Assembly: GCA_027460525.1 (NCBI GenBank)
Contig: JAPZAS010000032.1
Location: forward strand, 62,001 to 126,000
Reading direction: 5' to 3'
Source: Candidatus Methanoperedens sp.
GTDB lineage: Archaea > Halobacteriota > Methanosarcinia > Methanosarcinales > Methanoperedenaceae
DNA: 64,000 bases
The first letter of the stretch is position 1. Each line of letters opens with the position of its first letter. The notes below the pieces were generated by a model that was given only the letters and a program-made list of their open reading frames with translations, was not told where the DNA came from and searched no databases. Shown here piece by piece: positions 40,128 through 59,544 of the stretch. A program made the position numbers and the translations under genes.

Positions 40128-40323
40128 GGGGCTGTGGCCTAGTCCGGCATGGCGACGGGCTCCAGCGGAAAACCGGTTAATCCGGGTGTTATGATGAGCA
40201 ACGGGTCTGCTGAGCAAGCCTGACGAGGTAAGCGATGATGAGCCGTTGGAGCACTGAACATGTGCTGCTCATGGCGTTTTCGGAGAGACCCGTCGATCGT
40301 GAGTTCAAATCTCACCAGCCCCA
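40128..40323 (+). tRNA. tRNA-Trp (anticodon CCA) with 122-base intron
   Basis: Exon 1 40128-40165 and exon 2 40288-40323. Acceptor GGGGCTG/CAGCCCC, discriminator A. Anticodon stem ACGGG/CCCGT with loop CTCCAGA; the intron falls after position 37, as is usual for archaeal tRNA-Trp. T-arm GTGAGTTCAAATCTCAC. Exact exon ends inferred from the cloverleaf. Confidence 0.93.
40166..40287 (+). ncRNA. Box C/D guide RNA in the tRNA-Trp intron
   Basis: C box ATGATGA 40191-40197, D' CTGA 40210-40213, C' ATGATGA 40235-40241, D CTGA 40254-40257. By the N+5 rule the D guide (40242-40253) pairs with the anticodon region and targets C34 of the same tRNA; the D' guide pairs across the exon 2 junction (40286-40293) and targets position 39. 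This is the same arrangement known from Haloferax tRNA-Trp. Confidence 0.9.
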
Positions 40324-59232: not shown

Positions 59233-59256
59233 GACGGCATTAACATTAAAACAAAA

Positions 59257-59281
59257 GGGCGCAAGCATCAAGCATGCGCCC
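59257..59281. repeat. Hairpin GGGCGCA/TGCGCCC
   Basis: Seven-base perfect stem with an 11-base loop. No T run follows, so not a clear terminator. Confidence 0.5.
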
Positions 59282-59296
59282 CGGCAGTCTGTTGAG

Positions 59297-59322
59297 AGAC
59301 TGATATCTGGTCGATCACGTCA
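59297..59322 (+). repeat. Fragment of the tRNA at 59433-59520
   Basis: ATCTGGTCGATCACGTCA (59305-59322) is identical to 59471-59488 in the tRNA, and the bases before it (AGACTGAT) resemble the anticodon arm AGACTAAGG. It looks like a partial duplication of the anticodon-variable arm region. Confidence 0.7.
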
Positions 59323-59432
59323 AACTATCTTCTGTTTCCCCATTATTTAAGGATTTGCTTGTGCGAATTGAAATAATACTTTCACATCGCTTGGAAATGA
59401 CTCAAATAGTCTGAAGGCAAGGTAGAAATCAT

Positions 59433-59520
59433 GCCGAGGTAGTCTAGCAAGGTAAGGCGCCAGACTAAGGATCTGGTCGATCACGTCAGATCGCCGCGGG
59501 TTCGAATCCCGTCCTCGGCG
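59433..59520 (+). tRNA. Class II tRNA, anticodon AAG (tRNA-Leu by anticodon)
   Basis: 88 bases. Acceptor GCCGAGG/CCTCGGC; D stem GTC/GGC; anticodon stem CCAGA/TCTGG with loop CTAAGGA, so anticodon AAG; variable arm CGATC-ACGTCA-GATCG; T stem GCGGG/CCCGT with TTCGAAT. The discriminator is G at 59520, which is the archaeal tRNA-Ser pattern rather than A expected for tRNA-Leu. A34 tRNAs are not expected in archaea. Confidence 0.75.
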
Positions 59521-59544
59521 CAGTGATCATTCAGACGCGCTGCA

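Follow-up and report, generated by a model that had tools for sequence, protein, structure and literature searches.

A serine-type tRNA with anticodon AAG and a predicted antisense RNA gene form a candidate two-RNA module in Methanoperedens

The window, a stretch of 64,000 nucleotides from a Candidatus Methanoperedens genome, carries an intact class II tRNA gene that joins the anticodon AAG to a serine-type body. The opposite strand of an element just upstream looks like a small RNA gene of about 75 nt, complementary to this tRNA. With a probability of roughly 0.6, the pair is best read as a two-RNA module, in which a serine-inserting missense tRNA would be restrained by a dedicated antisense RNA. 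The initial annotation of this DNA had recorded the odd tRNA, which stands, but had missed both the adjoining candidate antisense gene and a second odd tRNA in the same genome. The features of the locus are as follows.

59433-59520, plus strand: class II tRNA with a serine-type body, anticodon AAG (59467-59469) and G73 at 59520 (ARAGORN, Rfam, direct reading, orthologues)
59401-59408, plus strand: weak TATA-like box CTCAAATA, at -32 of the AAG tRNA
59378-59394, plus strand: upstream motif ACTTTCACATCGCTTGG (alignment, pattern search)
59344-59351, minus strand: TATA-like box CTTAAATA (8/8 match), about 27 nt ahead of where the small RNA is predicted to start
59252-59325, minus strand: predicted antisense small RNA gene, 5' end at about 59325, 3' end at a U-run at about 59250 (conservation, fold)
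59297-59322, minus strand: antisense segment of the small RNA (direct repeat, duplex energy)
59281-59302, minus strand: small RNA hairpin CAGUCU/AGACUG (alignments)
59250-59282, minus strand: terminator-like hairpin GGGCGC..GCGCCC followed by TTTTGTTTT (sequence, fold, 15 genomes)

The AAG tRNA and the tRNA set of its host

The complete class II cloverleaf described earlier, with loop CTAAGGA and G73, was borne out by ARAGORN, Rfam and direct reading. ARAGORN called a tRNA-Leu(AAG) at 59433-59521, and 59433-59520 scored 55.6 bits (E 2.9e-9) against the Rfam tRNA model. Direct reading gave an acceptor stem GCCGAGG/CCTCGGC, an anticodon stem CCAGA/TCTGG, the anticodon loop CTAAGGA at 59465-59471, a variable stem CGATC/GATCG and a T arm GCGGG-TTCGAAT-CCCGT; together with the structure it showed a 7/5 acceptor branch. 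Both G1-C72 and G30-C40 are present. The five ordinary leucine tRNAs of the genome have A73, where the AAG tRNA has G73, and its acceptor and D arms are also of serine type, with tRNA-Ser(GGA) as the nearest match. The same tRNA was found at 99% identity in an independent assembly (G028). A sequence error at base 34 and a pseudogene, both raised in the initial annotation, were rejected on account of this independent copy and of the intact cloverleaf, with compensatory changes in its helices. Its suggestion of a lineage-specific, mischarged tRNA fared better: G73, G1-C72, G30-C40, the serine-type body and orthologues with anticodon GAU in sister species all point to a serine-type molecule.

Archaeal SerRS relies mainly on G73 and more weakly on G30-C40, the methanogen-type enzyme needs G1-C72, and the anticodon is not used (PMC9976931). 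The G73 of tRNA-Ser is moreover an antideterminant for the LeuRS of Haloferax (PMC9976931). As the odd tRNAs conform to the SerRS rules, serine is their expected load.

The host genome (2.44 Mb, 99.5% complete, genus Methanoperedens) holds ordinary leucine tRNAs with anticodons GAG, UAG, CAG, UAA and CAA, and ordinary serine tRNAs with GCU, UGA, GGA and CGA. Both sets are thus complete and Leu(GAG) is present as well as the AAG tRNA, a point that had been marked for checking. The second odd tRNA (G000:C19:42107-42192) is likewise of class II, with a serine body, G73 and anticodon UAA, and has its own upstream copy and terminator-like hairpin. CUU is the commonest leucine codon in the window (27.7 per thousand). 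When 53 CUU codons from three genes were aligned with relatives without such tRNAs, 50 fell on leucine and none on serine; CUU codons stay leucine, and a genome-wide code change, which would have made this a recoded tRNA, was rejected. Since the codon is both common and kept as leucine, an unrestrained AAG tRNA should be harmful.

The earlier remark that archaea have no known TadA to convert A34 to inosine agrees with this genome, where none was found above its cut-off and the two deaminases are nearest to cytosine and dCMP-type deaminases; A34 therefore probably stays an unmodified adenosine. That archaea read CUU with tRNA-Leu(GAG) does not hold without exception, since several Nanoarchaeota tRNA-Leu genes have the loop CTAAGGA with anticodon AAG (e.g. 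G417:C1:876923-876983), so that A34 tRNAs occur in archaea outside the odd-tRNA system. Elsewhere in the window, the tRNA-Trp gene at 40128-40323 is interrupted by a long intron in which a match to the box C/D RNA sR3 lies, an arrangement shared with other euryarchaea.

The upstream element and its complementarity to the tRNA

A diverged partial copy of the tRNA was found 50-190 bp upstream in 15 of the 17 listed loci and in one Nanoarchaeota metagenome-assembled genome (MAG); it was absent at E_G014 and A_G010. Each copy comprises the D arm and the anticodon and variable arms of its own tRNA and ends at the variable loop. The copy alignments score 3.5-11.8 standard deviations above dinucleotide shuffles, and 137 ordinary tRNA genes score no higher than 49, tandem tRNA neighbours and two leucine cases aside. 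At the locus in the window, 18 nt of the predicted small RNA (59305-59322) pair perfectly with tRNA bases 59471-59488, which run from the 3' strand of the anticodon stem to the variable loop, and the hairpin at 59281-59302 also carries the copy of the D arm (GGCAGTCT vs GGTAGTCT). The strongest or near-strongest duplex is formed with the cognate tRNA or one of the same family. For this genome the core duplex of family A reaches -40.5 kcal/mol against -23.6 kcal/mol for the next best host tRNA, and that of family B -33.9 with its own tRNA against -28.2. Copy and tRNA co-vary.

Several signals bear on the strand. On the minus strand of the element a U-run comes after a hairpin, and 10 of 16 loci have a TATA-like box 27-34 nt ahead of the predicted 5' end (27-31 nt in the four other family A loci with a copy); in six B and C loci the box is poorly placed. 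Were the minus strand to pair with the tRNA, differences of the type tRNA-G/copy-A and tRNA-T/copy-C would be tolerated as G-U, while the reverse differences would break pairs. Tolerated transitions outnumbered pair-breaking ones by 55 to 19 in the raw count and by 35 to 14 when collapsed by family and column (p 0.004), a bias that weakened to 19 vs 8 in core columns only (p 0.05) and to 16 vs 8 with each column taken once across families (p 0.15). Its direction favours a minus-strand antisense RNA without proving it. The helices of the family A small RNA are too conserved to reveal compensatory changes. The fold of the small RNA predicted at 59252-59325 has a z-score of -2.8.

Of the 31 genus genomes, 15 have the element, which is situated between the tRNA and the side of the locus where arcS lies. 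As it matched no Rfam family, a known Rfam RNA was rejected as its identity. The odd tRNA and its partner in one other genome (G017) sit between tgtA and arcS, genes of archaeosine tRNA modification (L210:6562-10237), and arcS is near the locus in the window too. A role for these neighbours was considered; position is the sole evidence. At two ordinary leucine tRNAs, L092 (G002) and L123 (G005), the 5' half (bases 1 to about 40) is repeated about 150 bp upstream and similar sequence follows the repeat, which looks like a tRNA-targeting mini-element.

Recurrence, origins and reach

The 31 genus genomes were searched at the DNA level and with covariance models and each tRNA was then read directly, which yielded at least 17 intact odd tRNA genes in at least 11 genomes. 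Among the matches listed, all have discriminator G73 and an anticodon AAG, GAU, UAA, UAU or GAA, so that the middle base is always A35 and these tRNAs would read codons with middle U (Leu, Ile, Phe). Alignment A1 showed G1-C72 in 15/15 and G30-C40 in 13/15. Family A, to which the AAG tRNA belongs, has AAG in at least two genomes and GAU in at least four; family B has UAA in at least five, UAU in at least one and GAU in at least one. Families C (UAU), D (GAA), and E and F (both UAA) each had a single anticodon among the matches listed. Compensatory changes affect 15 pairs, against 9.4 in shuffles, and fall in all five helices, which indicates that selection maintains the tRNA fold.

When acceptor, D and T arms are compared, the nearest body is tRNA-Ser(GGA) for family A, tRNA-Ser(CGA) for families B, C, D and the Nanoarchaeota case, and a leucine tRNA with discriminator G for family F; the closest match of family E is ambiguous. 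On this comparison of arms, the odd bodies arose separately from tRNA-Ser(GGA), tRNA-Ser(CGA) and, once, tRNA-Leu. Several separate origins of the same combination of features argue for function. The tRNA-Ser(CGA) genes of other families of the order (L093-L096, L100, L101) have a D-arm insertion ...ACTAATCCAACGG...GGAGTCTATATGCGG..., which is probably an intron in an atypical position.

In the set of tRNA loci retrieved, the strict motif CTTTCACNCCGC was present upstream of odd A and B tRNAs only; the same motif also precedes a putative nuclease gene in G001 (L211:7203-7214).

The family A small RNA is kept without the tRNA in nine species. In one genome (G016) it is accompanied by a truncated family A tRNA gene, and in another (G025) a B copy survives as a decayed orphan. 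A toxin-antitoxin pair would be expected to leave such a record, in which the tRNA is lost and the small RNA kept. Conservation of the orphan family A RNA in nine species, its antisense part included, implies another role or target; such small RNAs may protect against copies that enter the genome, or act on something else as well.

A pattern scan across 85 thousand species found one further complete pair, in the Nanoarchaeota MAG JAHISS010000012.1, with a CAA tRNA at L238:1872-1956 and an upstream copy at -110 to -57 of it. A palindromic box about equidistant from the two RNAs could serve both. The setting of this pair suggests mobility: it is enclosed in a very long open reading frame that weakly matches an intein, and coding sequence repeated in tandem flanks it. 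Searches of viral_contigs (two patterns) and plasmids gave no match, and a viral or plasmid origin was rejected. A strict model search of 186 genomes of the order returned only genus members and one ordinary serine tRNA, and searches by pattern in 393 genomes of the phylum and in 371 from the Nanoarchaeota phylum returned otherwise leucine-like tRNAs; the sensitivity of these searches is limited for other D-arm types. Bacterial class II tRNAs with anticodons GAA, UAU and CAA (L231, L232, L242) were noticed in two Verrucomicrobiota and one Coatesbacteria; the UAU and CAA tRNAs end in G73, and no clear upstream copy was seen in any of the three.

Proposed mechanism, rival readings and known systems

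We infer that both genes are transcribed. The first RNA would be a tRNA of serine identity (G73, long variable arm, G30-C40, G1-C72) with an A35 anticodon, which, if charged, would put serine at hydrophobic codons, here CUU. The second, of about 75 nt, would be transcribed divergently, its 5' end being complementary to the part of the tRNA that reaches from the variable loop across the anticodon stem, and often to the D arm too. Pairing would begin at the exposed variable loop and proceed through the variable and anticodon stems, thereby opening the anticodon arm and the variable arm, on which serine identity chiefly depends, so that charging and decoding would stop. Serine would then enter at CUU only when the small RNA is missing. 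The purpose of the module is probably that of an RNA-only toxin-antitoxin-like pair or of a conditional mistranslation switch. An adjacent gene pair with specific RNA complementarity, as an RNA-only toxin-antitoxin module requires, was found. More tentatively, at somewhat under even odds, the pairs may represent a new archaeal class of RNA-only toxin-antitoxin systems, arisen several times and present in Methanoperedens and a Nanoarchaeota lineage, with a serine-inserting missense tRNA for hydrophobic NUN codons as toxin and a divergent antisense RNA derived from a partial copy of this tRNA as antitoxin.

The same two RNAs could instead be adaptive, the antisense RNA tuning serine mistranslation under stress without addiction or killing. 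This shares all the anatomy of the module and gains from the motif upstream of odd A and B tRNAs, which suggests shared regulation; we regard it as unlikely, because the patchy presence, the loss of the tRNA with the small RNA kept and the drift among hydrophobic-codon anticodons fit a toxin better. More doubtful still is that tandem duplication, gene conversion or tRNA-targeted integration left the copy behind, that no antisense RNA is at work and that the odd tRNA is a stray missense tRNA or decoy. The partial copies at the leucine tRNAs L092 and L123 do resemble integration scars, but these span base 1 to the anticodon loop, whereas the copies at odd tRNAs end at the variable loop, retain segments of the D arm and the anticodon region, change in step with the tRNA, show the G-U bias, have the hairpin and U-run and persist without the tRNA.

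Another reading makes the plus strand the active one: a truncated tRNA-like RNA, with sense identity to the anticodon and variable arms, would act as decoy for the enzyme binding the odd tRNA. This reading was rejected as very improbable on the terminator, TATA and wobble evidence, all favouring the minus strand; in addition, neither the variable arm nor the acceptor has its 3' half in the copy. A code change or an ordinary leucine isoacceptor, for which the intact AAG anticodon speaks, is hardly credible given the alignment of CUU with leucine, the presence of Leu(GAG) and, for the isoacceptor, the effect of G73 on the archaeal LeuRS of Haloferax (PMC9976931).

Mismatches between tRNA body and anticodon occur naturally, and a dedicated antisense partner offers a testable answer to the question why cells retain such tRNAs, namely that they are dangerous and are kept in check. 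To our knowledge there is no earlier case of specific antisense control of a tRNA, or of an RNA pair in which a miscoding tRNA is the toxic member, and we know of no antisense partner for the nev-tRNAs of nematodes. If the two-RNA module is real, it would provide the first of each of these two cases and a compact bidirectional arrangement for turning mistranslation on and off. In type I toxin-antitoxin systems a divergent or overlapping antisense RNA silences the mRNA of the toxin; here the target would be a tRNA rather than an mRNA, and there is no toxin protein.

A literature search found no account of such tRNAs in Methanoperedens, and none of the nearest systems (allo-tRNAs, nev-tRNAs, CreTA) pairs a missense tRNA with its own antisense RNA. 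Allo-tRNAs are serine-type with non-serine anticodons, spanning 35 of the 64 codons, and have 8/4 or 9/3 acceptor branches (PMC7609411). The Methanoperedens tRNAs share the predicted serine identity, but fold with an ordinary 7/5 branch, have only anticodons with A35, belong to archaea and come with a predicted dedicated antisense RNA gene. Nev-tRNAs are also of class II with disagreeing body and anticodon, UAU occurring in both groups, but are leucylated (PMC4300185), where the odd tRNAs are predicted to be serine-type; that they break tRNA identity yet cause no detectable mistranslation (PMC4300185) was counted against a missense module. CreTA is an RNA-only archaeal pair that, as proposed here, attacks translation via tRNA (PMC8501985). 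Its toxin CreT sequesters a rare tRNA and CreA acts via a CRISPR effector on DNA (PMC8501985), whereas in Methanoperedens toxicity would come from the tRNA itself, to which the antisense RNA would bind by direct base pairing.
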